This document shows, in pieces, positions 9,410 through 38,477 of a stretch of 60,809 nt of DNA (its first letter is position 1; each line of letters opens with the position of its first letter). A program made the translations under genes and the position numbers. Source of the stretch: a virus; the IMG/VR virus record IMGVR_UViG_3300008262_000072, positions 1-60,809 of that record. The stretch is one strand, 5' to 3'. The notes under the pieces were generated by a model, which did not search any database, was not told the DNA's origin, and saw only the letters and a list, made by a program, of their open reading frames with translations.

Positions 9410-9415
9410 ACCAGG

Positions 9416-9925
9416 ATGATTATTCGTGTGGTTAACTGTCCAGACAAAGATTTTAAGCCCTTTGTTGAAAGAGCTGCCCAATTCTTCGCTAAAGAATTGA
9501 TACCTAATACACGGATAAGGAATAATTGTGCAACCGAAATTAAATTTTGTACAAAGATAGATGAATATGGTTTTGCTAGTATTGAAGATTACAATACACA
9601 AAAACAACCTCGAAAATTCCTAATAGAAATAAATCCAAATATTGGATCCAGAAGAATACTGGAAACTTTGGCACATGAAATGGTTCATGTGAAACAATAC
9701 ATTGATGGTGAAACGAACGATGAGTTGACCCGATGGAGAGGTAAACGGGTTGATCCAGACAAAATTGATTATTGGGTTCAGCCATGGGAAATAGATGCTT
9801 ACGGCCGTGAACCAGGACTACTTACGAAGTTTGCTATATCTGAACACTTGTGGGAAACGTTTGCTGACTTTGTTGACCCATCTGGTCCAATAAATTATAA
9901 TCCGATTGCATGGAAAAAAGAATGA
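9416..9925 (+). CDS. SprT-like putative zinc metallopeptidase
   Basis: 169 residues. HExxH site AHEMVHVKQY near 81-90, preceded by FLIEINPNIGSRRILETLAH, and a later Glu in EHLWETFAD that could be the third ligand. Found as a conserved protein in T4-like aquatic phages. Substrate unknown. Its Shine-Dalgarno is in the stem described at 9374-9409. Confidence 0.7.
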   Translation: MIIRVVNCPDKDFKPFVERAAQFFAKELIPNTRIRNNCATEIKFCTKIDEYGFASIEDYNTQKQPRKFLIEINPNIGSRRILETLAHEMVHVKQYIDGETNDELTRWRGKRVDPDKIDYWVQPWEIDAYGREPGLLTKFAISEHLWETFADFVDPSGPINYNPIAWKKE

Positions 9926-10461
9926 GTGTTGAAGCGGATAAATTTACATATGGCCAAGGTAACATAAAAGTTATCACAAATGAACCAGGCGTAAAAGTAA
10001 AAATGGGTAAATACTGTTCAGTTGCTGGGGATGTAAAGGTCTTTCTTGGTGGCAATCATAGAGTTGATTGGATTACAACATTTCCTTTTGGCCACACAAG
10101 CACAAACGAAATCAACGTTGGTAAAGTTGAAGGACATCCAAGTACAAACGGTGATATAATTATTGGTAATGACGTTTGGTTAGGCACAGGATGCACAATC
10201 ATGTCTGGTGTAAAGATTGGTGATGGTGCTGTTGTTGCTGCACATTCACACGTTGTACGTGATGTTGAACCTTATGCCATGGTCGGTGGAAATCCAGCAA
10301 GAACAATCAAACTTAGGTTTGAACAAAGAATTATTGATGCACTGATGGAATTAAAGTGGTGGGATTTAGATACAGATGTGGTAAAATTAATCGTCCCGAG
10401 CTTGTGTTCCGAACCAAATTATGATACAATACAAAACTTAATACAGAAGTATAAAAAATAA
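9922..10461 (+). CDS. Acetyltransferase of the left-handed beta-helix (CatB/Vat) type
   Basis: 179 residues from ATG 9922 (ATGA overlap with the previous stop); ATG 9910 in frame is possible. Hexapeptide repeats (IIIGNDVWLGTGCTIMSGV, KIGDGAVVAAHSHVV) then the C-terminal VGGNPARTIKLRF typical of xenobiotic or sugar O-acetyltransferases. Catalytic His candidate in LGGNHRVDW. May modify sugars made by the phage glycosyltransferases (inference). Confidence 0.88.
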   Translation: MSVEADKFTYGQGNIKVITNEPGVKVKMGKYCSVAGDVKVFLGGNHRVDWITTFPFGHTSTNEINVGKVEGHPSTNGDIIIGNDVWLGTGCTIMSGVKIGDGAVVAAHSHVVRDVEPYAMVGGNPARTIKLRFEQRIIDALMELKWWDLDTDVVKLIVPSLCSEPNYDTIQNLIQKYKK

Positions 10462-10475
10462 TTTTTAATAACCGC

Positions 10476-10504
10476 TTGCCAAGACATAAAAGTTCCTATA
10501 TAAT
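10476..10504 (+). promoter_or_regulatory. Sigma70-type promoter
   Basis: TTGCCA (10476-10481), 17-bp spacer, TATAAT (10499-10504). Opens a transcript of about 175 nt that ends at the terminator 10655-10684. Confidence 0.75.
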
Positions 10505-10510
10505 AACACT

Positions 10511-10621
10511 ATGACAAATTTTAAACACATATCCTTTACGTTGCATCAAGAGTATCGCACAATTAATTGTGGTGATAGCTCATGGGCGCCGACCGGGTTT
10601 TGTGTAAAGAGAGAGAACTAA
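10511..10621 (+). CDS. Possible 36-aa ORF within a short transcript
   Basis: Starts ATG at the predicted transcript start (MTNFKHISFTLHQEYRTINC...), so it would be leaderless. No homologue recognised. The same transcript has a hairpin AGAACT/AGTTCT (about 10615-10634) and may instead be a small RNA. The stretch 10462-10773 otherwise holds only promoters, a terminator and the boxA-like site. Confidence 0.35.
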   Translation: MTNFKHISFTLHQEYRTINCGDSSWAPTGFCVKREN

Positions 10622-10654
10622 AACATAAGTTCTAATTAAGACTCCAAACACAAG

Positions 10655-10684
10655 ACCCTAGACCTAAAAAATCTAGGGTTTTTT
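10655..10684 (+). terminator. Intrinsic terminator
   Basis: CCCTAGA / TCTAGGG with an A-rich 9-nt loop, then six T. Separates the short transcript from the tRNA array. Confidence 0.88.
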
Positions 10685-10711
10685 GTTTGTTGTTTCAATA
10701 CAACATAGTGG

Positions 10712-10739
10712 TTGCCAGAATCTTTGGTTCTGATACAAT
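10712..10739 (+). promoter_or_regulatory. Promoter of the first tRNA block
   Basis: TTGCCA (10712-10717) and TACAAT (10734-10739), spacer 16 bp, 35 bases before tRNA-Gln. Followed by a boxA-like sequence. Confidence 0.65.
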
Positions 10740-10745
10740 ACACTC

Positions 10746-10760
10746 TGTTCTTTAAAAATT
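10746..10760 (+). promoter_or_regulatory. boxA-like antitermination site
   Basis: TGTTCTTTAAAAATT. Closely resembles the rRNA-leader boxA (E. coli TGCTCTTTAACAATT) bound by NusB/S10. The same core recurs at 11585, again between a promoter and tRNAs. Confidence 0.5.
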
Positions 10761-10773
10761 TGTTGTAGTTTAT

Positions 10774-10847
10774 TGGGGTATAGCATAGTGGTAGTGCTGC
10801 GGACTTTGAATCCGTAGGTCCTTGTTCGATTCAAGGTACCCCAGCCA
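10774..10847 (+). tRNA. tRNA-Gln (TTG)
   Basis: U1-A72 acceptor TGGGGTA/TACCCCA as in bacterial Gln tRNAs, anticodon TTG, G73, encoded CCA. First tRNA of the main array. Confidence 0.93.
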
Positions 10848-10881
10848 TATAAAAACACATTGATGCAGTGTGTTTCTATAT

Positions 10882-10973
10882 GGAAGATGATGCAGCGGGG
10901 TTGGTCCTGCGACTGGCCTTGAAAACCAGGTTCTCAGAAATGGGATGGGGTTCGACTCCTCCGTCTTCCGCCA
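10882..10973 (+). tRNA. tRNA-Ser (TGA)
   Basis: Acceptor GGAAGAT/GTCTTCC, anticodon TGA in stem CTGGC/ACCAG, long variable arm (class II), G73 and encoded CCA. Confidence 0.92.
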
Positions 10974-10978
10974 AACAT

Positions 10979-11066
10979 AGAAGGTTGCCCGAGAGGTTAA
11001 GGGAGCAGTTTGCTAAACTGTCGTTGCGAAAGCGGCGCATCGGTTCGAATCCGATACCTTCTGCCA
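10979..11066 (+). tRNA. tRNA-Ser (GCT)
   Basis: Acceptor AGAAGGT/ACCTTCT, anticodon GCT, class II variable arm (about GTTGCGAAAGCGGC), G73, encoded CCA. Confidence 0.92.
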
Positions 11067-11072
11067 GTAAAT

Positions 11073-11164
11073 GCCAGCGAGACTGGGTAGTCAGAGAGGT
11101 CTTATACACCTTTTAGCGCCAGATTAGCGTTCTTGAGAGTGTTCGAGTCACTCCGCTGGTACCA
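11073..11164 (+). tRNA. Atypical tRNA-like gene, apparent TAT anticodon
   Basis: Acceptor GCCAGCG/CGCTGGT with G1-U72, T-arm GAGTG/CACTC, encoded ACCA. Best anticodon arm is GAGGT-CTTATAC-ACCTT, giving TAT (AUA codons, Ile). But a 24-nt variable region with its own hairpin (AGCGC/GCGTT) and a cramped D-arm (GACT-GGGT-AGTC) are class II or degenerate features. Could be an Ile tRNA of odd shape, a Leu-derived tRNA, or a decayed copy. Confidence 0.55.
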
Positions 11165-11172
11165 AATGAAAG

Positions 11173-11388
11173 ATGATTATGTGGAAAATTATAAACGAAG
11201 ATAAGATGATATTAAATGCAAGTCCAACATTGAATGATGCAATGAAGTTTGCAAAAGGTTACGATAAGTTTGTAACCATCACCAATGGTGAGATGGAATT
11301 TGTAGGTAAGTTCGGTGTTGATACTATCAAGGACGGAAAGTGTCCTGATGGAGTTGATTACACTTGGATGAAACGAAGAAATATGTAG
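11173..11388 (+). CDS. Hypothetical small protein in tRNA array
   Basis: 71 residues: MIMWKIINEDKMILNASPTL, then NDAMKFAKGYDKFVTITNGE. No family recognised. Its stop TAG (11386-11388) lies inside the 5' end of tRNA-Cys, so maturation of the tRNA would cut the message. Confidence 0.6.
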   Translation: MIMWKIINEDKMILNASPTLNDAMKFAKGYDKFVTITNGEMEFVGKFGVDTIKDGKCPDGVDYTWMKRRNM

Positions 11389-11460
11389 GTGTGACCCGAA
11401 AGGCTAGGGAGCAGATTGCAAATCTGTTTTATGCAGGTTCGATTCCTGTCACCTACTCCA
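11385..11460 (+). tRNA. tRNA-Cys (GCA)
   Basis: Acceptor GTAGGTG/CACCTAC, anticodon GCA, U73 (a Cys identity base), encoded CCA. Overlaps the stop of the upstream ORF by 4 bases. Confidence 0.93.
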
Positions 11461-11467
11461 AAAATTA

Positions 11468-11501
11468 GTCGTATAAAAATTAAATTTGAAATTTATACGA
11501 C
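11468..11501 (+). other. Long hairpin after tRNA-Cys
   Basis: GTCGTATAAA / TTTATACGAC, 10-bp stem, 14-nt loop, no T-run. A second hairpin, TGTTGTA-GAAA-TACAACA, follows at 11505-11522. Possibly a processing or weak termination site before the next promoter. Confidence 0.6.
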
Positions 11502-11528
11502 AAGTGTTGTAGAAATACAACACACTGG

Positions 11529-11557
11529 TTGACAGACATTCATGGTTGTGTTATACT
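11529..11557 (+). promoter_or_regulatory. Promoter of the second tRNA block
   Basis: TTGACA (11529-11534), 17-bp spacer, TATACT (11552-11557), ahead of tRNA-Glu. Confidence 0.75.
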
Positions 11558-11584
11558 TCATCTATGAATTGAGAAATCAATCAT

Positions 11585-11593
11585 TGTTCTTTA
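11585..11593 (+). promoter_or_regulatory. Second boxA-like site
   Basis: TGTTCTTTA followed by an A/T run, placed between the promoter and tRNA-Glu exactly as at 10746. The repeated arrangement supports a real antitermination element. Confidence 0.5.
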
Positions 11594-11611
11594 AAATTTT
11601 GAATGCTTTAT

Positions 11612-11687
11612 GCACCTATCGTCTAACGGTTAGGACGATGCCCTTTCAAGGCATAAACGGCGGGTTCGATTCCCCCTAGGTGTACCA
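11612..11687 (+). tRNA. tRNA-Glu (TTC)
   Basis: Acceptor GCACCTA/TAGGTGT (G1-U72), anticodon stem ATGCC/GGCAT with TTC, A73, encoded CCA. Confidence 0.9.
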
Positions 11688-11833
11688 TTGTTAAGTGTTA
11701 TCAAGGTATCGTCATAGGACGCTATGACTATGCGGGCTCAACTGTGCGAGGAACGGGTCCTGATATAACTGCTATTCGCTTGTGAGTGCTAGCTACATTG
11801 TTCACAAATAGGCACGATAGCACTTAACAATGG
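11688..11833 (+). ncRNA. Unassigned structured RNA A in tRNA array
   Basis: The ends pair over up to 18 bp: 11685-11702 (CCATTGTTAAGTGTTATC) with 11816-11833, one G-U pair. Inside: GTCATAG/CTATGAC (11711-11717 with 11722-11728), AGGA/TCCT (11749-11752 with 11758-11761) and TTGTGA/TCACAA (11780-11785 with 11802-11807). No ORF, and not tRNA-shaped. The 5' arm begins in the CCA of tRNA-Glu. I do not recognise the class. Confidence 0.6.
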
Positions 11834-11839
11834 TAGTTT

Positions 11840-11913
11840 GGAGGTATAACTTAGTGGTAAAGTAGTAGGCTTTTAACCTATTAACCAGAGTTCGATTCTC
11901 TGTACCTCTACCA
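11840..11913 (+). tRNA. tRNA-Lys (TTT)
   Basis: Acceptor GGAGGTA/TACCTCT (G1-U72), anticodon TTT in TAGGC..CCTA, A73, encoded CCA. Confidence 0.92.
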
Positions 11914-11920
11914 AAAAATT

Positions 11921-12005
11921 GGAGATGCGGCAAAGTGGGAGAGTTGCGGCAGACTGTAAATCTGTTCTTTCGGGTGAGTAGGTTCGAATCTTACCATCTC
12001 CACCA
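11921..12005 (+). tRNA. tRNA-Tyr (GTA)
   Basis: Acceptor GGAGATG/CATCTCC, anticodon stem CAGAC/TCTG with GTA, class II variable arm as in bacterial Tyr tRNAs, A73, encoded CCA. Confidence 0.94.
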
Positions 12006-12205
12006 AATCCCGTTACCACTTTCGTTAAAGTGGCGTTTGATTAGCGAGAGAGATCCGGTGGCAGAAAACCGATAGCGGGGTGGGAATAAAGCACTCCCCA
12101 GACTCTGATAGGCAGAATCCTAACTGCACACAGACATTAGAATAAAATGGATGGACAGAGTAACTGCTCAATTAAGGGCTTGTGTGGAAACAAGTAGCTT
12201 ATACT
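12006..12205 (+). ncRNA. Unassigned structured segment B in tRNA array
   Basis: No ORF. A first domain is closed by CCCGTTA/TAGCGGG (12009-12015 with 12073-12079) and holds CCACTTT-CGTT-AAAGTGG (12016-12033) and CGGT/ACCG (around 12055-12071). Further on: GCAG/CTGC and CTTGT/ACAAG hairpins (the latter near 12179-12195). The first domain is tRNA-sized (71 nt) but lacks T- and anticodon-arm consensus and CCA. Class not recognised. Confidence 0.45.
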
Positions 12206-12211
12206 ATTTTA

Positions 12212-12286
12212 GGTGCGTTCATATAATGGTCATTATCTCGGATTGTCTATCCGAAGATGGGAGTTCGATTCTCCCACGCATCGCCA
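12212..12286 (+). tRNA. tRNA-Asp (GTC)
   Basis: Acceptor GGTGCGT/ACGCATC, anticodon stem CGGAT/ATCCG with GTC, G73, encoded CCA. Confidence 0.93.
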
Positions 12287-12314
12287 AATGTTATATTGTT
12301 GTAAGGAAATAAAA

Positions 12315-12671
12315 ATGAATATAGAAGATATGGTTGGTAAAGTGTTCACATCGGTGACACAAGATGGTCGTGAAATGATATTTGCTAATGATACTGAAAA
12401 ATTCAAATTCTATCATTATCAAGATTGTTGTGAATCGGTTTACATTGAAAGTGTTGTAGGCGATTTATCAGATTTAGAAGGTGAACCACTTTTGATTGCT
12501 GAAGAAGTATCAGGTGAAATACCAGAAGCTAGAGAAGATGAATACATTGAATCTCGTTCATGGACATTTTACAAATTTGCTACACGCAAAGGTTATGTTG
12601 ATGTTCGTTGGTTGGGAGAATCAAACGGTTATTATTCTGAGTCAGTAGATTTAGAATATGAGTTAGTATAA
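12315..12671 (+). CDS. DUF7448-type conserved phage protein
   Basis: 118 residues from ATG 12315 (Shine-Dalgarno AAGGAA). Conserved core FYHYQDCCESVYIESVVGDL followed by PLLIAEEVSGE and SWTFYKFATRKGYVDVRW is characteristic of this widespread phage/bacterial family, whose function is unknown. A longer in-frame reading would start inside tRNA-Asp and is rejected. Confidence 0.8.
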   Translation: MNIEDMVGKVFTSVTQDGREMIFANDTEKFKFYHYQDCCESVYIESVVGDLSDLEGEPLLIAEEVSGEIPEAREDEYIESRSWTFYKFATRKGYVDVRWLGESNGYYSESVDLEYELV

Positions 12672-12677
12672 GAATAT

Positions 12678-12752
12678 TCCAGAGTAGCACAGCGGTAGTG
12701 CAGTTGACTGTTAATCAATTGGTCGTAGGTTCGATCCCTGCCTCTGGAGCCA
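12678..12752 (+). tRNA. tRNA-Asn (GTT)
   Basis: Acceptor TCCAGAG/CTCTGGA (U1-A72), anticodon stem TTGAC..ATCAA with GTT, G73, encoded CCA. Confidence 0.94.
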
Positions 12753-12955
12753 AGCCGCTCCGCTTTGTTAGCGGATACTGTGACCCGCAGGATAGAAGTG
12801 AGGTGACTCTCAAGGGTGGTAGTCTTCTTACCGAAAGGCCGCTGGCAATGCGTTAACGGTCCTGGTCGGGAAGCGGGTGGAAGGTGTGTGAGATTTGCGG
12901 GGCAACCCAAGAGATGATACACTAAATTACCGCCGCAGGATGCAGAGCATTTAAT
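12753..12955 (+). ncRNA. Unassigned structured segment C in tRNA array
   Basis: Clearly more GC-rich than its surroundings. Helices: CCGCT/AGCGG (about 12756-12775); ACCCGC/GCGGGT (12783-12788 with 12873-12878), enclosing GGCCG/CGGTC (around 12838-12861) and GACT/AGTC; then TTGC/GCAA (about 12896-12906) and ATGC-AGA-GCAT near 12940. An antisense ORF here (12632-12922) runs through tRNA-Asn and is not credible. Class not recognised. Confidence 0.5.
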
Positions 12956-12958
12956 TTC

Positions 12959-13032
12959 GCCCTATTAGTATAATGGTATTACACCTGTTTTGTAGTCAGG
13001 TTACGGCAGTTCGATTCTGTCATGGGGCCCCA
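12959..13032 (+). tRNA. tRNA-Thr (TGT)
   Basis: Acceptor GCCCTAT/ATGGGGC, anticodon loop TTTGTAG giving TGT (stem has a U-U at 31-39), C73, encoded CCA. Confidence 0.85.
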
Positions 13033-13038
13033 GTTTTT

Positions 13039-13114
13039 CTCTCTGAAGCGTTATCAGGTTGCGTACACGGTTTGGGGCCGTGTGGTCAAGGTTCGAATCC
13101 TTGCAGGGAGACCA
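13039..13114 (+). tRNA. tRNA-Pro (TGG)
   Basis: Acceptor CTCTCTG/CAGGGAG (C1-G72, a Pro identity feature), anticodon TGG in ACACGG..CCGTGT, A73, encoded CCA. Confidence 0.93.
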
Positions 13115-13120
13115 GTTTAT

Positions 13121-13194
13121 GGGGAATTAGTATAATGGGATTACGGCAGCTTTGCAAGCTGTTTATAGGAGTTCGATTCTCCTATTCTCCACCA
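13121..13194 (+). tRNA. tRNA-Ala (TGC)
   Basis: Acceptor GGGGAAT/ATTCTCC with a G3-U70 wobble, the Ala identity element. Anticodon TGC in CAGCT/AGCTG, A73, encoded CCA. Confidence 0.94.
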
Positions 13195-13200
13195 AATTTC

Positions 13201-13275
13201 GGTGATGTAGCAAAACGGTAATGCACCTCCTTCATACGGAGAAGATTGGGGGCTCGAGTCCCTCCATCACCACCA
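13201..13275 (+). tRNA. tRNA-Met elongator type (CAT)
   Basis: Acceptor GGTGATG/CATCACC, anticodon loop TTCATAC, A73, encoded CCA. Paired 1-72 excludes the initiator type. One of three CAT tRNAs in the window. Confidence 0.85.
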
Positions 13276-13282
13276 ATATTAT

Positions 13283-13357
13283 GGGCGATTAGTAAAATGA
13301 ATATTACACAACGCTACGAACGTTGAAGTGGGAGTTTGATTCTCTCATCGCCCTCCA
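13283..13357 (+). tRNA. tRNA-Arg (ACG)
   Basis: Acceptor GGGCGAT/ATCGCCC, anticodon stem CAACG/CGTTG with ACG (needs host TadA for inosine), U73, encoded CCA. D-loop lacks the usual GG (AAAATGAATA), a mild oddity. Confidence 0.85.
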
Positions 13358-13361
13358 AAAT

Positions 13362-13436
13362 GCCGAGGTAGCTCAGTGGTAGAGCAGCGTCTTGATAAGG
13401 CGTTGGCCAAGAGTTCAATTCTCTTTCTCGGTACCA
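13362..13436 (+). tRNA. tRNA-Ile (GAT)
   Basis: Acceptor GCCGAGG/TCTCGGT (G1-U72), anticodon GAT, A73, encoded CCA. Confidence 0.9.
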
Positions 13437-13439
13437 AAT

Positions 13440-13513
13440 ATCTCGCTGGTGTAATGGCAGCATAGCGGTCTCCAAAACCGTTGGTTGGGGTTCGAGTCCC
13501 TAGCGGGATGCCA
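13440..13513 (+). tRNA. tRNA-Trp (CCA)
   Basis: Acceptor ATCTCGC/GCGGGAT (A1-U72 and G73, as in Trp), anticodon CCA in GCGGT..ACCGT, encoded CCA end. Confidence 0.93.
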
Positions 13514-13536
13514 AGTTTTATTAGAAGGTGGTTAAT

Positions 13537-14022
13537 ATGAAAAATTTTAATATAGAAGAAGTCAGACAATACCTTGCAAATCAAGGTCCTGATACCAAGG
13601 TTTATCTTGGTGCCGACTCTGAAAGAATCAGAGTGAATGGTGTTTGGTATGCTGACTATGCTCTAGCAGTTGTAGTTCATATTGATGGCCGACATGGTTG
13701 TAAGATTTTCGGATATGTTCACCGTGAATTGGATTACGACCATAAGAAAAGTAAACCTGCTATGAGGTTGATGACTGAAGTTTATAAAGTTTCAGAATTG
13801 TTTCAATCATTAGCAGAAGTGTTGGAAGATTATCATGTTGAAGTTCATCTTGATTTAAATAAAGATGATGTTCATGGTAGTTCATGTGTTGTTCAGCAAG
13901 CAATTGGTTATATCAAAGGTACATGTAACATGACACCAATGGTTAAACCAGATGCACCTGCTGCAAGTTTCTGTGCTGACAGATTGAAAAGAATTCTGGC
14001 AGAACAGGAAGCAATTCAGTAA
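13537..14022 (+). CDS. RNase H-like protein of the YkuK/DUF458 family
   Basis: 161 residues from ATG 13537 with Shine-Dalgarno AGAAGGTGG; an upstream in-frame GTG overlaps that site and is less likely. Motifs VYLGADSERIRVNGVWYADY (residues about 22-41) and CKIFGYVHRELDYDHKKSKP fit this predicted RNase H-fold family, and HLDLNKDDVHGSS supplies further acidic residues. Nuclease activity is predicted only. Embedded among tRNAs, so RNA processing is a possible role (inference). Confidence 0.75.
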   Translation: MKNFNIEEVRQYLANQGPDTKVYLGADSERIRVNGVWYADYALAVVVHIDGRHGCKIFGYVHRELDYDHKKSKPAMRLMTEVYKVSELFQSLAEVLEDYHVEVHLDLNKDDVHGSSCVVQQAIGYIKGTCNMTPMVKPDAPAASFCADRLKRILAEQEAIQ

Positions 14023-14025
14023 TAT

Positions 14026-14100
14026 GGAGTTGTTAGTTTAGTGGTAAAACTGCGGGTTGTGATTCCGCCATCACGGGTTCGATTCCCGTACTTCTCCCCA
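14026..14100 (+). tRNA. tRNA-His (GTG), mismatched acceptor
   Basis: Anticodon GTG in TGCGGGTT..TCCGCC, G-1 opposite C73 as His tRNAs require, encoded CCA. The acceptor GAGTTGT/ACTTCTC has two adjacent U-U mismatches (4-69, 5-68), so function may be impaired. Confidence 0.85.
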
Positions 14101-14106
14101 ATTTAT

Positions 14107-14181
14107 GCCTTGTTAGCTCAGTGGTAGAGCGCCCTCCTTACAAGTGGGATGTCGGCAGTTCGAAACTGTCACAAGGTACCA
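14107..14181 (+). tRNA. tRNA-Val (TAC)
   Basis: Acceptor GCCTTGT/ACAAGGT (G1-U72), anticodon loop CTTACAA, A73, encoded CCA. One mismatch in the anticodon stem. Confidence 0.9.
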
Positions 14182-14185
14182 TTAT

Positions 14186-14261
14186 GCTGCTTTAGCTGAT
14201 GTGGTCATAGCGGTGGTTTGAAGAACCATTGAAAGAGGTTCGATTCCTCTAGGCAGCACCA
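14186..14261 (+). tRNA. tRNA-Phe (GAA)
   Basis: Acceptor GCTGCTT/AGGCAGC, anticodon arm GTGGT-TTGAAGA-ACCAT giving GAA, A73, encoded CCA. Confidence 0.9.
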
Positions 14262-14266
14262 AATAT

Positions 14267-14343
14267 GCCCAAGTGACGGAATAGGTATACGTACTTGATT
14301 CAAAATCAAGGTTATGTGGGCTCGAATCCCACCTTGGGTACCA
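14267..14343 (+). tRNA. tRNA-Leu (CAA) with short variable arm
   Basis: Acceptor GCCCAAG/CTTGGGT (G1-U72, A73 as in Leu), Leu-like D-arm, anticodon CAA in CTTGA/TCAAG. The variable region is only about 5 nt (GTTAT) where bacterial Leu tRNAs have a long arm. Confidence 0.88.
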
Positions 14344-14344
14344 T

Positions 14345-14418
14345 GCTCTTATAGGTAAATGGCATACCACATCCATGGTAAGGATGTATCCTAAGTTCGA
14401 TTCTTAGTAGGAGCACCA
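14345..14418 (+). tRNA. tRNA-Thr (GGT)
   Basis: Acceptor GCTCTTA/TAGGAGC, anticodon arm CATCC-ATGGTAA-GGATG giving GGT, A73, encoded CCA. Second Thr isoacceptor. Confidence 0.88.
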
Positions 14419-14615
14419 ATTTGTTTTAATGTTGTTAAGACAAACTCTTTTTCTTGTGTGATATATAATTCATCCTCAGTAAAAGATTTTTTCTCAGTAA
14501 CATATGATGGAACAAAATCAGAAGGCACACAATAATAACCATGTGGTTCATATGGTTGTTGTGCATACAGTCCGTAGAACATTTCTACTGTAGGTCTTTT
14601 TGATGTTGGTATCAT
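14391..14615 (-). CDS. Possible small minus-strand gene between tRNAs
   Basis: 74 residues from the ATG at 14615 (MIPTSKRPTVEMFYGLYAQQ, then PYEPHGYYCVPSDFVPSYVT). Composition is protein-like and the plus strand has no alternative, but its last codons run antisense into tRNA-Thr and no Shine-Dalgarno is seen. It fills the 210-base gap 14419-14628. Confidence 0.4.
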   Translation of the reverse strand: MIPTSKRPTVEMFYGLYAQQPYEPHGYYCVPSDFVPSYVTEKKSFTEDELYITQEKEFVLTTLKQIGAPTKNRT

Positions 14616-14628
14616 ATGAGTATTTATT

Positions 14629-14705
14629 GCCCCGGTGACGGAATTGGTATACGTGTTGGTCTTAGAAGCCAAATTTTGAGAGTTCGAGTCTCTCCTGGGG
14701 CACCA
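14629..14705 (+). tRNA. tRNA-Leu (TAG) with short variable arm
   Basis: Acceptor GCCCCGG/CTGGGGC, D-arm almost identical to tRNA-Leu(CAA) (GTGACGGAAT.GGTATACG), anticodon loop CTTAGAA giving TAG, variable region about 5 nt, A73, encoded CCA. Confidence 0.88.
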
Positions 14706-14711
14706 AAAAAT

Positions 14712-14786
14712 CTGGCGTTAGTATAATGGATAATACAGTAGGCTTCTACCCTTCTAATGGGAGTTCGATTCTCTCACGCCGGACCA
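14712..14786 (+). tRNA. tRNA-Arg (TCT)
   Basis: Acceptor CTGGCGT/ACGCCGG, anticodon loop CTTCTAC giving TCT, A73, encoded CCA. Confidence 0.9.
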
Positions 14787-14804
14787 TTTAACAAGGAGTT
14801 TATT

Positions 14805-15386
14805 ATGCCATCAGTATTTTTAGTAAGTGACACACACTTTGGTCACGCTGGTGTGTGTAGATTTCTCCGTGAGGACGGTGTGACAAAGCTTAGGCCATGG
14901 GATAATCCTGATGAGATGGATGAAGAAATGGTAAAGCGATGGAACGAAACTGTAAGACCAAACGATAAGGTATATCATCTTGGTGATGTTGTTATCAACC
15001 GTAAAGCAATGAGTACTCTGTATAGGCTTAACGGCGATAAAGTTCTTATCCGTGGCAACCATGATATATTTCGTGATGAGGAATACAGACAACACTTCCG
15101 TGAACTACGTGCTTATCATGTAATGAACGGAATGATTCTGTCACACATTCCAATTCATGAGGAAAGTCTTGGTCGTTTCGGTGTAAACATTCATGGACAC
15201 CTTCATGCAAATCGGGTAAAGATTGCTAAACATGCAAAAGCTAAGCCTGAAATTGATACTAGATACCATTGTGTTTGTGTTGAACAAACAGATTTTAGAC
15301 CGATTCTTTTTGAAGATGTTATCAAAAGAATCAAAGAAGAAGGTGGTATGGTCGGTTTCAAAAATGGAAACGGACCTGCCATGTGA
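14805..15386 (+). CDS. Calcineurin-like metallophosphoesterase
   Basis: 193 residues from ATG 14805 (Shine-Dalgarno AAGGAG). Full motif set: SDTHFGH (8-14), HLGDV, GNHD, ILSHIP and HGHLH. Such small phage phosphoesterases (MJ0936-like) act on phosphodiesters or phosphomonoesters; the substrate is unknown. It lies between tRNA-Arg and tRNA-Leu, its stop two bases before the latter, so it is read in the tRNA transcript. Confidence 0.9.
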   Translation: MPSVFLVSDTHFGHAGVCRFLREDGVTKLRPWDNPDEMDEEMVKRWNETVRPNDKVYHLGDVVINRKAMSTLYRLNGDKVLIRGNHDIFRDEEYRQHFRELRAYHVMNGMILSHIPIHEESLGRFGVNIHGHLHANRVKIAKHAKAKPEIDTRYHCVCVEQTDFRPILFEDVIKRIKEEGGMVGFKNGNGPAM

Positions 15387-15387
15387 T

Positions 15388-15471
15388 GCGAGTATGGGGG
15401 AATTGGTAGACCCAGCAGACTTAAAATCTGCCGCCATGTGCGTACCGGTTCGACTCCGGTTACTCGTACCA
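15388..15471 (+). tRNA. tRNA-Leu (TAA), class II
   Basis: Acceptor GCGAGTA/TACTCGT (G1-U72), anticodon stem GCAGA/TCTGC with TAA, a genuine long variable arm (CGCCATGTGCG), A73, encoded CCA. Contrasts with the two short-armed Leu tRNAs. Confidence 0.93.
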
Positions 15472-15484
15472 TTTTGGAGATTAT

Positions 15485-17419
15485 ATGAGAATTTTGGCTA
15501 TACATAGTGAACACGGAATACACCATTCATCATGCTGTATATATGATGGTGATTCAATTGTTTATTTCTTAGAGGAAAGATATAGTGGTTACAAACACGA
15601 TTCTGGTTTAGAACATTGTTTGTTTAATGTTTTAAAAACTAATTTAACATTCGATAAAATTGTATTCAGTGAGTTTCACAATTTAGAAGTTTCAAACAAT
15701 GATAATTATGATGAAAGGTTATTAAAGAAGATATCAAAATCTTTACCTTACATGACAAAGATTGCATTAACGGAACCAAAAAAATTCTTAGATGTTAATC
15801 CAGAAAATGTGGAAGAACAAATCATAACAGACATTGAAATACCTTTACCCGATTCTGTGGATGCTTCGATTGCAACAGAATGGAAAAAAATTTCTAATGG
15901 TTCTAAAAAATTTATACTATCATATTATAAAAAATATAATCATTTTCCTTTGATTGAATATGATAGTAAACACCACCGCAATCATGCCTCGTTGGCTTTT
16001 TACAATAGTGGTTTTGATAAATCACTTATCTTTGTTGCTGATGGTGCTGGTGAAGTAAATTTTGCAACAGCACCTGATGGTAAATTTATTAATTATAAAG
16101 AGATTGAATCTGTATATGTTGGAGATTATCCTAGTTCGGTAGAACCAATTTATAAAAATTTCGGTTCATATGAAGGACACGATTACACAAAAGAAATTAC
16201 AAGATGGAAGAAAAAATATCCTGATTGTGAAGTTGTTTTTGGAAATTATATGGGTATAGGATTCTTATATGGATGCGCCGCAATTCACATCAATGAAACG
16301 ATGGAAGAATCTGGCAAAGTTATGGGATTATCTTCATATGGAAAATCAACAAATAATAGTTATATAAAAAACGATTACTATGTTAACACAGATTTATTTA
16401 ATTGTGCAGCACACGATTTTTTACCTATATTTGCACCACCAAATGGTTATTCAGAAAATTTCAAATATAAACCAGTACATGAAAATACACCAACACAAAT
16501 AGGTGGTCCGGAAACAATAATTGCTTTAAAGACTTTGCCTTTGCAAAAGATTATCACCAAAACAAATTATAAACCTTATGCTGATTTTGCAAAAGATGTG
16601 CAATTACAAACGCAAGAGATTGGTGCCAACTTAATTAGAAAAGCAATAGATAAAACTGGTATAAAAAAGGTTTGTGTTTCTGGTGGGTATGGAATGAATA
16701 TACTTTCAAATTCATACTATGTAAAGCAATTTCCTGATGTTGAGTTTTATTTCGAACCATTGTCGATTGATAGTGGTATCTCGATTGGTTGTGCTTTATA
16801 CCATTTTCATAAAGAAACGGGCGATTGTACCTCTAGACCAGTTAAAAGTATTTCATTTCATGGTTTTAAACATGATGTTACTTCATATAAAGGTGTTGAT
16901 GCATCATTACAAGATATTGCAAAACTTTTATATGATAATAAATCTGTTGCAGTATACACAGGTTTAGCTGAGGCCGGACAACGTGCTTTGGGTAATCGTT
17001 CCATATTGTTTAATGCATTGAATGTTGATGCAAAAGATATTGTTAACAAAATCAAGCGTAGAGAATGGTATAGGCCATTTGCTGCTGTTGTCTTGGAAGA
17101 AGATGCTGAGTTGTATTTTGATATGGGTAGAACCAAGAAGAATTTGTTTATGACACAATCATTTGATGTTAAGACCGATTTAATTCCTGGTGTCACACAT
17201 GTGGACAACACCTGTAGAGTACAAACTGTATCAGAAGGATATTTGTATGACCTTTTGGTTGAGTTTAAAAAACTTTCTGGTCATGGCATTCTATTGAACA
17301 CTAGTTTCAACCTTGCTGGCAAACCTTTAGTGGAAACACCAAAACAAGCCATAGAGACTTTGAATACTTCAGTATTGGATTATCTTTGGTTTGAAGAAAC
17401 CGGACAATTATTTTCATAA
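15485..17419 (+). CDS. Carbamoyltransferase (NodU/CmcH family)
   Basis: 644 residues, full length for the family. N-terminal Kae1/TsaD-like domain with KHHRNHASLAFYNSGF and FVADGAGE (metal/nucleotide site); C-terminal YrdC-like part with TGLAEAGQRALGNRSIL and REWYRPFAAVVLEED. The family makes carbamoyl-adenylate and transfers carbamoyl to sugar or antibiotic hydroxyls. Homologues are frequent in T4-like cyanophages; the acceptor here may be a glycan on DNA or virion (inference). Downstream of tRNA-Leu, likely co-transcribed. Confidence 0.9.
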   Translation: MRILAIHSEHGIHHSSCCIYDGDSIVYFLEERYSGYKHDSGLEHCLFNVLKTNLTFDKIVFSEFHNLEVSNNDNYDERLLKKISKSLPYMTKIALTEPKKFLDVNPENVEEQIITDIEIPLPDSVDASIATEWKKISNGSKKFILSYYKKYNHFPLIEYDSKHHRNHASLAFYNSGFDKSLIFVADGAGEVNFATAPDGKFINYKEIESVYVGDYPSSVEPIYKNFGSYEGHDYTKEITRWKKKYPDCEVVFGNYMGIGFLYGCAAIHINETMEESGKVMGLSSYGKSTNNSYIKNDYYVNTDLFNCAAHDFLPIFAPPNGYSENFKYKPVHENTPTQIGGPETIIALKTLPLQKIITKTNYKPYADFAKDVQLQTQEIGANLIRKAIDKTGIKKVCVSGGYGMNILSNSYYVKQFPDVEFYFEPLSIDSGISIGCALYHFHKETGDCTSRPVKSISFHGFKHDVTSYKGVDASLQDIAKLLYDNKSVAVYTGLAEAGQRALGNRSILFNALNVDAKDIVNKIKRREWYRPFAAVVLEEDAELYFDMGRTKKNLFMTQSFDVKTDLIPGVTHVDNTCRVQTVSEGYLYDLLVEFKKLSGHGILLNTSFNLAGKPLVETPKQAIETLNTSVLDYLWFEETGQLFS

Positions 17420-17424
17420 TGTGC

Positions 17425-17453
17425 TTGCCAAGTGATTGTAAAGCATATATAAT
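17425..17453 (+). promoter_or_regulatory. Sigma70-type promoter of the last tRNA block
   Basis: TTGCCA (17425-17430), 17-bp spacer, TATAAT (17448-17453). Ten bases before tRNA-Gly. Same -35 variant as at 10476 and 10712. Confidence 0.78.
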
Positions 17454-17462
17454 ACACATGAT

Positions 17463-17537
17463 GCGGGTATAGTGCTAGTGGTAACACAAGACCTTGCCAA
17501 GGTTTAGTTGTGGGTTCGATTCCCACTGCCCGCTCCA
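17463..17537 (+). tRNA. tRNA-Gly (GCC)
   Basis: Acceptor GCGGGTA/TGCCCGC, anticodon loop with GCC, U73 (Gly identity), encoded CCA. Confidence 0.94.
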
Positions 17538-17559
17538 AGTTAACTACAACAAATTTTAT

Positions 17560-17633
17560 GCAGGGTTAGTTTAATGGTAAAATTCCATCCTTCCAAGTTG
17601 GTGTCGTGGGTTCGATTCCCACACTCTGCTCCA
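17560..17633 (+). tRNA. tRNA-Gly (TCC)
   Basis: Acceptor GCAGGGT/ACTCTGC, anticodon loop CTTCCAA giving TCC, U73, encoded CCA. Confidence 0.92.
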
Positions 17634-17639
17634 TTTAAT

Positions 17640-17706
17640 GCGGTTTGTAATAGTACGATACAAGGTACCCCCTTGTGTTAACTGAGCAAAGCAGTAGACC
17701 GCTCCA
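17640..17706 (+). tRNA. 67-nt tRNA-like element with degenerate arms
   Basis: A 7-bp acceptor GCGGTTT/AGACCGC, U then encoded CCA. Small D-like hairpin GTA/TAC, anticodon-like arm ACAAG-GTACCCC-CTTGT (would read ACC) and T-like arm ACTG-AGCAAAG-CAGT without the TTCGA consensus. Probably a decayed Gly-type tRNA or a tRNA mimic; unlikely to decode normally. Confidence 0.5.
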
Positions 17707-17719
17707 TTTTGAGGACACT

Positions 17720-17965
17720 ATGAATATTAAACCATTGCACGATAAAGTATTGATTGAACGGCTTGAAAATGTTAAAGAGACCGCTTCAGGCATCATCCTA
17801 AAACATTCCGAAGAACCAGATAAAGCAAGAGTACTTGCAGTTGGTCCAGAGGTTACAGAGGTACAGGTTGGTGATGTTGTTCAACCAGATTGGGGTAAGG
17901 CTGCAGCTGTACAAGAATATTTCGTAGTGAAGATTCAAGATATCGCTTACATCTACGGAGAGTAA
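17720..17965 (+). CDS. GroES-like co-chaperonin
   Basis: 81 residues from ATG 17720 with a GAGG site; the longer in-frame reading would start in the tRNA-like element. Cpn10 fold marks: N-terminal KPLHDKVLIERLE, mobile-loop-like ETASGIIL, and VLAVGPEVTEVQVGDVV with a C-terminal strand. T4 gp31 plays this role for the capsid protein; here the loop retains the bacterial-type IIL end for GroEL binding. Confidence 0.88.
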   Translation: MNIKPLHDKVLIERLENVKETASGIILKHSEEPDKARVLAVGPEVTEVQVGDVVQPDWGKAAAVQEYFVVKIQDIAYIYGE

Positions 17966-17966
17966 T

Positions 17967-18227
17967 ATGTCGGATGGTGGTAAAGGTTCTAATCCAAGAC
18001 CGTTTAGTGTTTCGCAAAAACAATTTGCGGATAATTATGATGCCATCTTCCGTAAACCTTCACCTAAAGAGTTAGAGGAAGACAAATACGAACAAGAAGA
18101 ATTTGATAGAATCTTAGAAGAAAATCGTATGCGCCAAAAAAGAGAAAAGGCTCTGGATGAGATTGTCAGAATTAATCAAGAATTAGGATTGTATGACGAT
18201 GAATACAATCCTTTAATTAAGGAATGA
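17967..18227 (+). CDS. Conserved T4-like phage protein (MSDGGKGS family)
   Basis: 86 residues. The start MSDGGKGSNPRPFSVSQKQF is a hallmark of a small conserved protein in many T4-like phages; function unknown. The remainder is charged and helical. One base after the GroES stop; its stop abuts the initiator-like tRNA. Confidence 0.75.
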   Translation: MSDGGKGSNPRPFSVSQKQFADNYDAIFRKPSPKELEEDKYEQEEFDRILEENRMRQKREKALDEIVRINQELGLYDDEYNPLIKE

Positions 18228-18300
18228 AGCGGGTTGGTGAAACAGTATCACAGTGGGCTCATAATCCTCAGTTCCGGTGCAACTCCGTGACCCGCAACCA
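18228..18300 (+). tRNA. Initiator-like tRNA-fMet (CAT)
   Basis: Position 1-72 is an A-A mismatch (AGCGGGT / ACCCGCA), the formylation hallmark of bacterial initiators, which leave 1-72 unpaired. Anticodon loop CTCATAA after GGG (29-31) facing TCC, D-stem GTGA/TCAC, A73, encoded CCA. T-loop TGCAACT and a T-stem mismatch are atypical. Confidence 0.75.
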
Positions 18301-34432: not shown

Positions 34433-36204
34433 AAAAGTTTTTAGAAAAATTACACGAAGATGCACAGACCCACACACCTGTGGTTATGGCATTTGGTCGA
34501 ATGAACCCACCAACTATTGGTCACGAAAAACTGGTCAATAGAGTCACACAGTTAGCCAAAGATTATAAAGCACCACACCACATTATTGTGTCACATTCTA
34601 TGGATGCAAAGAAGAATCCATTGGAACTTGCAAGTAAAATTAAACACGCAAAGAGATTCTTTCCAGGTGCGAACATAACTGGTTCAAGTAAAGAGAAACC
34701 AACATTCTTACAACATGCAGCTGCACTACATGCGGCTGGACATGACCACTTGGTGATGGTTGCTGGTTCAGACCGTATTCCAGAATATGAACAAAAGTTA
34801 AATCAATATAATGGTGAAGGTCCAGGTAAATTATTCAACTTCAAAAAGATTGAAGTGAAGTCTGCTGGTCAACGTGATCCAGATGCCGAAGGTGCAGAAG
34901 GTATGTCAGCATCCAAAATGCGTGAACATGCAAAGAGTGGAGATTTCAATTCTTTCCGCCAAGGTGTTCCATCACACGTTCCAGATAATCACGCTAGAGC
35001 ATTGTTTCGTGATGTTCGTAAAGGCATGGGATTGAATGAAGATTTCAACCGTGGTCTGTTTAAAGCCATCTTTGTGACTGGCGGACCTGGTTCAGGTAAA
35101 GACATTATCATCCGTGAAGCGATTGCAGAATCAAAAGCAGTCGAGTTAAATTCTGTGCAAGCATTTGACTTATTGATGGACAAACAAAAGTTGTCTGAAA
35201 AAACAAATGACTACCGTAGAGAAGCAATTCGCAACCGTGGTCCACTAATCATCAATGGTCCTGCTGACGACCACACAAGAATGATTACCATTAGAGAAGA
35301 ACTAGAAGAATTTGGTTATGAAACCGCTATGGTGTTTGTTGATACAACCAACGAAGCCAGTAAAGAACGTAATGAGAAGTTGAACAAATCAATTTCCGAA
35401 TCAATCAGATATGATAAGTGGCAACTTGCACAAACTTCAAAAGAAGCATATCGCCAGAATTTTTCCAATTTTATAAATTTCAATAATAGTTCCACTTTCG
35501 AAGAAATTCAAGAGGATATTACTGACACTTACGGAGAAATAAATAGGTTCATCGAGGACAAAAATTACAATGAAATTGCGTTCTCTTGGTTGGAAAGTCG
35601 TGGTAAAATTAGTATCACATCATTATTTAAGGAAAATGAAAATGTTAAGAAAAATTCTAGATTTTTTGAAAGTTACAAAACCAAGCGCACCAGCGGCACC
35701 AGTGGAAGTCCAAGTCTCAACACCGGAACCGGTCCAAGAGCAGAAGGTCCAGGAAGTGAACTCCCAGATAATCGTGCAGGAGACAGTAACGCCGACAACA
35801 TCAAGTGGGACGGAAACAAAAAACGTGGCGGATACACCTTCAGAACCTACACCGAAGAAAGCCCCAGCCTCAAAGTCAACCCAATCCCCAAAGAAAACAA
35901 CTTCTCCAAGGACAAAGAAAAAGTAAAGCGTAATCGTTTTACTGATGCACCAACTGTCAATCAACGTATGAGAAATATTACAACAGTTGGTCCAGAATTT
36001 GATACACGCCAACAGGGAACAGTATACCCTATGTCTGGTCTAGGCGATGTAACATATAGAGAGTCTTACAATAATCCAGCTGATACCGAAATGGGTGTTA
36101 GTGGTGTTTTGGGTGGTGCAACAAATAAGGAACCTATGGAAAATCCAAGAGACAAGTTTGGTTCAAGTTCTCTAAAGAATTCTCTAAAGAAGAAAAAGAA
36201 ATGA
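34429..36204 (+). CDS. Capsid-targeted nucleotidylyltransferase-kinase fusion (NadM/NadR-like)
   Basis: 591 residues. N-terminal MKKFLEKLHE is a possible capsid-targeting tag. Domain 1 (about 17-205): FGRMNPPTIGHEKLV (HIGH-type motif) and MSASKMREHAK (ISxxSxxR-type motif) of nucleotidylyltransferases such as NMN adenylyltransferase. Domain 2 (about 212-400): P-loop FVTGGPGSGKD of a kinase. The tail (about 420-591) is low-complexity and Lys-rich. NadR has the same two activities, so NAD+ synthesis is one possibility; other small-molecule substrates remain open. Confidence 0.65.
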   Translation: MKKFLEKLHEDAQTHTPVVMAFGRMNPPTIGHEKLVNRVTQLAKDYKAPHHIIVSHSMDAKKNPLELASKIKHAKRFFPGANITGSSKEKPTFLQHAAALHAAGHDHLVMVAGSDRIPEYEQKLNQYNGEGPGKLFNFKKIEVKSAGQRDPDAEGAEGMSASKMREHAKSGDFNSFRQGVPSHVPDNHARALFRDVRKGMGLNEDFNRGLFKAIFVTGGPGSGKDIIIREAIAESKAVELNSVQAFDLLMDKQKLSEKTNDYRREAIRNRGPLIINGPADDHTRMITIREELEEFGYETAMVFVDTTNEASKERNEKLNKSISESIRYDKWQLAQTSKEAYRQNFSNFINFNNSSTFEEIQEDITDTYGEINRFIEDKNYNEIAFSWLESRGKISITSLFKENENVKKNSRFFESYKTKRTSGTSGSPSLNTGTGPRAEGPGSELPDNRAGDSNADNIKWDGNKKRGGYTFRTYTEESPSLKVNPIPKENNFSKDKEKVKRNRFTDAPTVNQRMRNITTVGPEFDTRQQGTVYPMSGLGDVTYRESYNNPADTEMGVSGVLGGATNKEPMENPRDKFGSSSLKNSLKKKKK

Positions 36205-36413
36205 AAAAATTCACAGAATTCGTAAAAGAATCCACAAAAGAAACTGAACACCACGATGCTCAGGAAATCAAACGTCAAAAGGCACACTTGATGGACAAAG
36301 CTAAAGAGTATGGTGACCAAGCACAAAAAGAAAAACATTTCGGTCATGGTGGCGCCGCACAAGCAAAAGGTGAGACTATGGCTGCAGCTGCAAAAAACAT
36401 TAAAGGAGAGTAA
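36201..36413 (+). CDS. Small capsid-targeted internal-protein-like
   Basis: 70 residues. MKKFTEFVKE matches the T4 internal-protein targeting pattern (MKTYQEFIAE); the rest is charged, helical and Lys/His/Ala-rich, as T4 internal proteins are. Probably packaged in the head and trimmed by the prohead protease. Overlaps the previous stop (ATGA). Confidence 0.6.
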   Translation: MKKFTEFVKESTKETEHHDAQEIKRQKAHLMDKAKEYGDQAQKEKHFGHGGAAQAKGETMAAAAKNIKGE

Positions 36414-36414
36414 C

Positions 36415-36906
36415 ATGATAGACTTAAAAAAGAACGATGCACTTGCTGATGCGGTAAAAGAAATTTTACAGCAAGAAGCTTTAAAAGGTAATCAACACGA
36501 AATTGATAAAAATAAGAACAATAAAGTTGATGCACACGATTTCAAAATTCTTCGTGGTGAAAAGAAAGCAGTTAAAAAAGAAGAAGTTGAAACCGTTGAA
36601 GAAGGTCTTAAAGATATTGCCAAGAAAGCTTTCAAAGCTTTGACTGGTGGTTCAGATGAAGACCAACTTAAAGCACTACAGAAAAGAGCTGGTGCACCAG
36701 TAACTGGTAAAAAACCAGAACCAAAAAAAGAAGAAGTTGAAGTTTCAACCCAAAAAACTTTGAAGCAATTCAGAGAAAATGCATTTGACTGGAAAAAGAA
36801 ACCAGAACCACAACCAAATGGCGGTTCAGGTGTAAAACAAGGTTCACGTTATGGTGGTTCTAAACAGAAAGATAAACCAGAACAGGAAACAGACGAAAAA
36901 AAGTAA
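36415..36906 (+). CDS. Charged virion-type protein with EF-hand-like loop (0-frame product)
   Basis: 163 residues from ATG 36415 (Shine-Dalgarno AAAGGAGAG). EIDKNKNNKVDAHDFKILRG reads as a calcium-binding EF-hand-like loop (D-x-N-x-N-x-x-x-x-x-x-D). C-terminal half is Lys/Pro/Glu-rich. The last codons form A-AAA-AAG directly before TAA; a -1 shift there would add 49 residues (see 36897-36947 and 36903-37052). Confidence 0.75.
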   Translation: MIDLKKNDALADAVKEILQQEALKGNQHEIDKNKNNKVDAHDFKILRGEKKAVKKEEVETVEEGLKDIAKKAFKALTGGSDEDQLKALQKRAGAPVTGKKPEPKKEEVEVSTQKTLKQFRENAFDWKKKPEPQPNGGSGVKQGSRYGGSKQKDKPEQETDEKK

Positions 36907-36947
36907 ATGAGGCAAAAGGACCAACCAGTCAGGAAGACGGACCTTTT
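36897..36947 (+). promoter_or_regulatory. Candidate programmed -1 ribosomal frameshift signal
   Basis: Heptamer A-AAA-AAG (36897-36903), in the correct zero-frame register, immediately before TAA. SD-like AGGA at 36884-36887, 9 bases upstream. Ten bases downstream a hairpin AAAAGG/CCTTTT (36914-36919 with 36942-36947) with inner CC-GTC/GAC-GG. This is the same three-part layout as E. coli dnaX. Confidence 0.6.
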
Positions 36948-37052
36948 GTCTCTAGTATTAATGATACACATGATTTGAAGCCATTGAACCACGCAAGGTA
37001 CTTGGCTAAAAAATCTTTAAATAGAGTTCAAAAAGAAATGATGAACAAATAA
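36903..37052 (+). CDS. -1 frame extension of the 36415 protein
   Basis: Open -1 reading frame of 49 codons from the slippery site to TAA 37050-37052: starts VNEAKGPTSQEDGPFVSSIN and ends LAKKSLNRVQKEMMNK. It has no ATG or GTG near its beginning, so independent initiation is unlikely. It would be made as a 212-residue fusion by -1 frameshifting. A genuine indel is the alternative. Confidence 0.55.
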   Translation, partial: VNEAKGPTSQEDGPFVSSINDTHDLKPLNHARYLAKKSLNRVQKEMMNK

Positions 37053-37061: not shown

Positions 37062-38477
37062 ATGAGCAAAGCACAAACATTAAAATCTATAGTTAAAAGG
37101 GGGGGTGCAGAAAAGCCTTCTTTTGGAACCAATCCTTGGGATCCATGGTCCGCAAAAGCAAATATTGCGGAAGATGCTGCTTTGGATCAATATTTGACCT
37201 CTAGAGGTATCAATCCGAAACACGTTTCTAAAGACCAGAAGGTTGCACATTCCAAGATGGGTCAATTCCTAAAATGGAAAAGAGACCACATGTCTGAAGC
37301 TGTAGACAGGAAAGATACAATTGTTTTTGACATTCCTTTATTGATTCGTGTGTTAGAATTTGCTCGTGAAGAATTGAAATCAGACGTATTACTACACAAA
37401 ATGGTAGAAAGATTGATTTCTATCCGTGGTAAGGGAACATTGACAATGAACCAATATGGCAAGATTGTCAAAGAAGAAGCTGAATCTTTAGGTGAATCTT
37501 TTCCTGAATATGGTGAAAGAGCCAATAAACTTTTAAAAAGAAGTCATGAACTGTATGATAAATCTCGTTCAGAACCAGACGCTTCAAAGAAAAAAGAAAT
37601 GGTTTCTAAGTCAACAAGAGCTCATGGTATTTTTATGAAAGCCAAAGAAAAACACATGAGTCGTCATCCTGAAGATGCAGAATCTTTACGAAACAAAACA
37701 ATGTCTGGTGCAAGCAAAGATTATGAAGGTGGTAAAAAATGGACTGGCGATTCTGTTGAACATCCGGAAGACACTAGTGTTATTTCTGAAATCAGCAGTG
37801 CAACTTTGGATAGTTACAAAGAGAAGGCCAAGAAGTCAGCTGATGATTTGTCAGCAAAAGGTGAATATAGAAAATCTACAAACCGCTGGTCTAACATTAT
37901 GAAGGCTACTGGTAAACAGATTGATAAGACAACTGCCAGCATTAAGAAGTCTTTGAACAAGGAAGAAACTGTTTCAGAGGTTGCACCTCCAGGATTTGAG
38001 GGTACCGTCAAGGCCATGAAAAAACATAAGGATATTGATAATCCTTATGCGCTCGCATGGTCAATGAAGAACAAAGGTTACAAGTCACATAAGAAGGCTG
38101 ACGGAACACCAAAGAATGAAAACTTTCAGGATCCAATGGCCGCATCATCAATGCCTAATGACGGTGCAAATAGTCCTGATGATGTTGAACAACCAAAGAA
38201 TAAAAAGTTAATTCAAATGTCTAAGTCTGCTCGAATCATTAAAAACCTTTATAAAAAGAAGGGTATGAAAGAGGAGATTTATGACCACGAAAAGGAAGAT
38301 AAATCTGTTGCATCTTCTGGTAAAAAACCAAAAATGCAAAAGATAAGTACTGGTTTAGAAGAACCACAAGCCGCAGCGGTATTAACAGGCGGTACCACCA
38401 TGACTGGTGAAAAGAGAGATACCATCGAAATCGACCCTATGATGAAGATGCGTAAACCAATTTCTGGAAAAAGATAA
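37062..38477 (+). CDS. Large virion-associated/internal-head-type protein
   Basis: 471 residues, charged, mostly helical. Conserved segments of T4-like phage virion proteins: DQYLTSRGINPKHVSKDQKV followed by AHSKMGQFLKWKRDH (about 42-78), and NPYALAWSMKNKGYKSHKK (about 325-343). N-terminal part contains a run of seven G bases (37100-37106) that could mark a sequencing-sensitive site, but the frame is open throughout. No enzyme motif seen. Confidence 0.65.
   Translation: MSKAQTLKSIVKRGGAEKPSFGTNPWDPWSAKANIAEDAALDQYLTSRGINPKHVSKDQKVAHSKMGQFLKWKRDHMSEAVDRKDTIVFDIPLLIRVLEFAREELKSDVLLHKMVERLISIRGKGTLTMNQYGKIVKEEAESLGESFPEYGERANKLLKRSHELYDKSRSEPDASKKKEMVSKSTRAHGIFMKAKEKHMSRHPEDAESLRNKTMSGASKDYEGGKKWTGDSVEHPEDTSVISEISSATLDSYKEKAKKSADDLSAKGEYRKSTNRWSNIMKATGKQIDKTTASIKKSLNKEETVSEVAPPGFEGTVKAMKKHKDIDNPYALAWSMKNKGYKSHKKADGTPKNENFQDPMAASSMPNDGANSPDDVEQPKNKKLIQMSKSARIIKNLYKKKGMKEEIYDHEKEDKSVASSGKKPKMQKISTGLEEPQAAAVLTGGTTMTGEKRDTIEIDPMMKMRKPISGKR

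Follow-up and report, generated by a model that had tools for sequence, protein, structure and literature searches.

The DNA of IMG/VR virus record IMGVR_UViG_3300008262_000072 analysed here, a stretch of 60,809 nt called the window below, carries a real, conserved -1 frameshift signal that, judging from its sequence, is very probably used in the phage. With a probability of roughly 0.87, -1 programmed ribosomal frameshifting of the dnaX layout would yield a 212-aa form of a protein beside a 163-aa form. Ribosomes translating the 163-codon gene would arrive at the heptamer A-AAA-AAG and be held there by a hairpin 5 nt downstream, probably together with an upstream AGGA. Both tRNA-Lys would slip back onto AAA-AAA, and a fraction of the ribosomes would bypass the stop in the -1 frame and add 49 residues (212 aa), while the remaining ribosomes would terminate at TAA and release the 163-aa form. 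We infer that the ribosome itself slips, at some efficiency, that the phage needs both forms, and that the protein acts in the head. An earlier note on this DNA had proposed a -1 programmed frameshift signal at this place, and the clade-wide occurrence of the signal, the selection on the tail in the -1 frame only, and the frozen heptamer and stem sites strongly support that proposal. The following elements are read directly from the window.

36415-36906, + strand: frame-0 gene with ATG start and AAAGGAG upstream, short product of 163 aa, homologues in 46 IMG/VR loci
36884-36887, + strand: SD-like AGGA, 9 nt before the heptamer, its putative role taken from dnaX
36897-36903, + strand: slippery heptamer A-AAA-AAG in frame 0, identical in 52 of 52 clade contigs
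36904-36906, + strand: frame-0 stop TAA directly after the heptamer, present in 52 of 52 clade contigs
36903-37052, + strand: -1-frame tail of 49 codons (VNEAKGPTSQEDGPF...MMNK) plus stop, long product of 212 aa ending in a confident predicted helix
36909-36952, + strand: candidate stimulatory hairpin with an 11-bp stem (36909-36919 with 36942-36952) and an inner helix in the loop, indicated by fold energy and frozen synonymous sites
11840-11913, + strand: phage tRNA-Lys(UUU) from the tRNA search, able to read both heptamer codons

The gene starts with ATG at 36415 and its 3' end reads ...GAC GAA AAA AAG TAA. The heptamer, in frame and directly before the stop, and the AGGA 9 bases upstream of it are both placed as the earlier note had described. 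The hairpin, which was said to lie 10 bases past the heptamer, is present as well, but it begins at 36909, after a spacer of 5 nt. Its stem strands are GAGGCAAAAGG and CCTTTTGTCTC, and its fold energy is -18.8 kcal/mol (z -3.73), with none of 200 shuffles as stable. In E. coli, A_AAA_AAG is among the most shift-prone heptamers, and stimulatory structures usually begin 5-8 nt downstream (PMC4066793). Two features of the dnaX layout, the in-frame A-AAA-AAG and a stable structure at that distance, are found in the window, together with a signal conserved beyond the amino acids and a second frame under selection. In the Rfam search, no match except tRNAs was obtained. Gene-like ORFs of the window contain 104 in-frame X-XXY-YYZ heptamers; the one at 36897 alone has a directly adjoining stop, and no other joins such a stop to a long -1 extension and a fold at or below -15 kcal/mol. 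The other two heptamers with a long -1 extension, at 34405 and 3229, are located 4-6 codons before a stop, are followed by weak folds (-1.4 and -9.5 kcal/mol), and appear to be normal overlaps with the gene that follows. Of six relatives searched, five have DNA matching the tRNA-Lys(UUU). The search of the window gave no tRNA-Lys(CUU). The region 8231-18297 of the window has 27 tRNA genes predicted by ARAGORN and one weak Rfam match (18228-18297), a near-full set, and a Nol-like carbamoyltransferase gene (15485-17419) adjoins this tRNA cluster.

Tail-encoding contigs in IMG/VR numbered 51, and an alignment-based scan for the tail gave the identical 51. In all of them the junction between the frame-0 body and the -1 tail is A7-G-TAA, and in none is the gene continuous; the hairpin sequence is kept in all 51, with a stem mismatch in one contig. 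A DNA pattern scan without the requirement of a split returned 65 contigs, each representing this gene. The frameshift signal is kept in all 52 sequences found of the window's clade, which consists of freshwater T4 relatives; the 52 contigs include near-copies, and the number of distinct tails is 22. Conservation of heptamer and hairpin in relatives, which had been suggested as a check, was thereby found throughout the clade (52 contigs, with the mismatch in L310). The SD-like element is more variable in the clade alignments, being AGGA at 9 nt in the window, at 6 nt in some relatives, and AGG only in two. It is partly accounted for by the encoded peptide and, by analogy, probably assists ribosome pausing at the heptamer.

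The -1 frame past the heptamer stays open for 49 codons, to TAA at 37050-37052, and has no ATG, GTG, or TTG before tail codon 27, which agrees with the claim that it is open without a start of its own. For the tail after the hairpin, pN/pS among the 22 distinct sequences is 0.20 in the -1 frame versus 3.83 and 1.31 in the other two, and these two frames also contain stops in the tail region. On these ratios, the tail is under purifying selection in the -1 frame only. It was predicted as a flexible linker followed by a confident helix at residues 28-49; folded alone it is one helix, with too little information for a fold search. Its tryptic peptide is GPTSQEDGPFVSSINDTHDLKPLNHAR. No significant second copy of the tail was found within the window. 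A separate small tail protein with its own start, for example by re-initiation at the stop, would find a candidate start in TAAATGAGG, which puts an ATG right past the stop in about half of the contigs, but that ATG is in frame 0 and opens a short unrelated ORF, and the other half has CTG. As codons 3-26, which hold the best conserved part of the tail, precede any ATG, GTG, or TTG in the tail frame, and relatives encode the tail fused, a separate protein is extremely improbable.

The chance that a recent indel, decay, or sequencing error has broken a continuous gene is equally negligible. One extra A would join the two frames, and relatives outside the clade are continuous; however, exactly A7 occurs in 52 contigs from many metagenomes, the tail keeps its pN/pS of 0.20 with zero stops past the split, even in L050, where tail identity has fallen to 63%, and stem and heptamer are frozen. 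A coding tail together with a frozen RNA signal across the clade excludes sequencing error or decay for the clade, where this explanation is refuted by conservation.

Synonymous variation was observed in one of nine heptamer/stem codons, four of eight loop codons, and 24 of 30 codons past the hairpin (Fisher p 3.6e-4 for heptamer/stem versus post-hairpin codons, in a test that ignores shared ancestry). Five further clade members have fold energies of -18.8 to -26.2 kcal/mol, and L310, with one stem mismatch, has -12.5 kcal/mol. A loop change in L307 and L347 can extend the stem, the fold of L307 being the one of -26.2 kcal/mol. The single synonymous stem change in the clade turns A-U into G-U. 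No hairpin pair has changed on both sides within the clade, so the case for the structure is made by its fold energy, by the freeze at synonymous sites, and by the one G-U change. What looked like a double change in L338 was only a stem in another register and was left out of the count.

The hairpin also bears on transcriptional slippage, in which the polymerase would add an A in the A7 run and ordinary translation of the A8 transcript would enter the tail. With one added A, the long product would be exactly the same. Relatives have A9 or A10 at the same place, and these are lengths of efficient slippage by bacterial RNA polymerase, which slips efficiently at 9 As (PMC5009743); Citrobacter rodentium tssM does so at A11 (PMC4256274). 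A7 is, however, shorter than the cited slippage sites and than the run of about nine or more A/T of the Thermus dnaX type, a length that the A9/A10 relatives have, and 17 A7 runs occur on the + strand of the window. While the polymerase is on the run, the RNA of a downstream hairpin has yet to be made and could play no role in the slip, yet the hairpin is frozen, and the terminal G of A-AAA-AAG is invariant. The hairpin past a short A7 and the invariant G favour ribosomal over transcriptional slippage in the window's clade, and the transcriptional route is considered unlikely there.

Among known systems, E. coli dnaX is alike in the heptamer A_AAA_AAG, in the order of SD-like element, heptamer, and hairpin, in similar spacings, and in two products with a common N-terminus (PMC5009743, PMC3711429), but the shift there, at about 50% on the same heptamer (PMC5009743), leads to the short product and here would lead to the long one, and the proteins are unrelated. 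Two-ORF dnaX genes share the zero-frame stop directly past a poly-A slip site and the long form made via -1 (PMC3711429; PMC5009743), and their A10 versions recall the distant relatives of the window gene. They differ in being cellular replication genes, and the slippage preferred for them by the authors is transcriptional; A7 with a hairpin is the arrangement in the window clade. For dnaX, ribosomal frameshifting and transcriptional slippage each occur, in different bacteria, and have been called interchangeable (PMC3711429). In C. rodentium tssM, a poly-A tract likewise interrupts the gene and gives two length variants; both variants are needed, and the continuous Yersinia homologue also slips (PMC4256274). 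The slippage there is transcriptional, at A11, and the passages on it describe no stimulatory hairpin. The lambda G/GT chaperones and the capsid proteins of phages A2 and T3 are structural-type phage genes in which a -1 slip adds a C-terminal extension (PMC5009743), but the window gene matches neither chaperone nor capsid families, and its neighbours differ. A chaperone of the lambda G/GT type, which would have a tape measure gene downstream, was rejected: body, tail, and the gene that follows are without a PHROG match, and the gene beyond is the head-like phrog_613. A frameshifted major capsid protein of the A2 or T3 type was rejected likewise, as neither PHROG nor, above cut-off, Pfam gave a match. 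T4 is named as the exception for the G-T frameshift (PMC5009743).

By its content, the window belongs to a T4-like phage: it encodes a DNA polymerase with about 50% identity to those of cyanomyoviruses, and the T4-type prohead protease family PF03420 is present in four relatives. A T4-type internal head protein, which would lie inside the capsid and be cut by that protease, is one candidate identity for the product of the frame-0 gene. The frame-0 gene carries an EF-hand-like motif DKNKNNKVDAHDF, a weak match under the Pfam cut-off, and a C-terminal stretch found family-wide. Its body is a mosaic of inserted modules of highly variable length, while the last part and the tail are constant. Module insertions such as EEVEQIDELSKSTLGSYVKKA and KAPPGFEGTVKAMKKHKDIDNP occur in L008-L050 upstream of the junction and in the window gene 37062-38477; IDE followed by L in such modules presumably resembles the T4 prohead protease site. 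Two neighbouring genes are as follows.

36201-36413, + strand: upstream small gene MKKFTEFVKES..., known from its sequence and with no family match above cut-off
37062-38477, + strand: downstream gene of the same cluster, 471 aa, used as marker protein for the tree

We take the start of the upstream gene to resemble the T4 capsid-targeting sequence. No known family was matched above cut-off by body or tail, neither matched isolated phages, and no genome contig was confirmed to have the gene in the scan of such contigs; a continuous relative used as query gave just weak module matches in cyanophages. Synteny with cyanophage S-ShM2 comprises cytidylyltransferase, uncharacterised lysine-rich proteins, a virion structural protein, and gp61 primase. 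At the syntenic place, S-ShM2 has lysine-rich modular proteins, in which no A-run frameshift was recognised. This synteny puts the gene near the head-like protein (phrog_613), and from these neighbours a virion location of its protein is plausible. No paper with the term for a virion location of the neighbouring cytidylyltransferase was among the matches listed.

Outside the clade, more distant loci encode the C-terminus of the tail in frame, as a continuous ORF. The earlier note had named continuous ORFs in relatives as a sign of an indel; they were found, but only outside the clade, where they point to an ancestral gene and not to a recent indel. Most continuous relatives have no such downstream fold, and their A-run is of other length or absent. 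Since several of them (L087, L132, L138, L144, L147, L149, and L251) are without a long A-run, the continuous gene is probably the ancestral state. With the tail encoded in frame in distant relatives, it would be the C-terminus that the family had originally, and the derived feature would be the regulated making of the form without the tail.

An in-frame A9 was identified in L090-L098, L229, and L383, and it is followed by GTAACTGA at L090:3160, L092:3199, L093:3199, L094:3166, L097:3166, L098:3142, and L229:4082. When seven A9 loci were compared, AAA AAA AAA GTA ACT was invariant at every third position, and neighbouring codons vary. In the A9 ORFs, GTA is used for 36 of 147 Val and ACT for 33 of 110 Thr, and the remaining KKK triplets contain AAG. 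Both other frames have immediate stops at this junction (TAA, TGA), and its sequence resembles that of Thermus dnaX-type sites, at which slippage is transcriptional. In L383 (9021-9080), the two junction types are mixed, the in-frame A9 being followed by a strong hairpin (-20.1 kcal/mol, z -5.96).

The gene is split to -1 at A10 in L148, L151, L242, L243, L381, and L382 and at A9 in L155 and L380, with TAA, TGA, or TAG directly past the run. L155/L380 and L381/L382 are contig pairs, which rules out a single-assembly error for these at least, and the split state of L151 and of L148 rests on single contigs. Runs of nine or more A or T outside the junctions occur once in 14 relative loci, as a second A9 run at L353:6313, and not at all in the window. 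L148/L338 also have a downstream hairpin (-17.6 kcal/mol, z -3.0), which is absent in L242, L243, L155, L380, and L381 in the fold test. Slippage in the A9/A10 members may be transcriptional, given the efficiency with which bacterial polymerase slips on 9 As. In the tree of the downstream protein, L242 and L243 fall inside a group of continuous relatives, and no fewer than two changes across the starred branches are required to explain the split state; support for this tree is modest. Slightly better than even is our estimate that A7 with hairpin, in-frame A9 with stops, and out-of-frame A9/A10 are interchangeable means to one two-product junction, and, as part of that reading and with the same narrow preference, that the out-of-frame state arose separately from the window clade on at least one occasion. 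This wider pattern of alternative slippery junctions is less certain than the frameshift signal of the window's clade.

With this finding, T4-like phages gain a well-supported recoded gene that belongs to neither the tail-chaperone nor the capsid families; for the usual tail frameshift, these phages have been described as the exception. Annotation pipelines will cut this gene short or overlook its tail. The relatives form a natural series, from continuous without a run through in-frame A9 and out-of-frame A9/A10 to A7 with hairpin, which allows direct tests of the change from one to two products and from transcriptional to ribosomal slippage. If the junctions are indeed interchangeable, these phages would need the two forms in a fixed proportion, regardless of whether polymerase or ribosome slips, as with dnaX.
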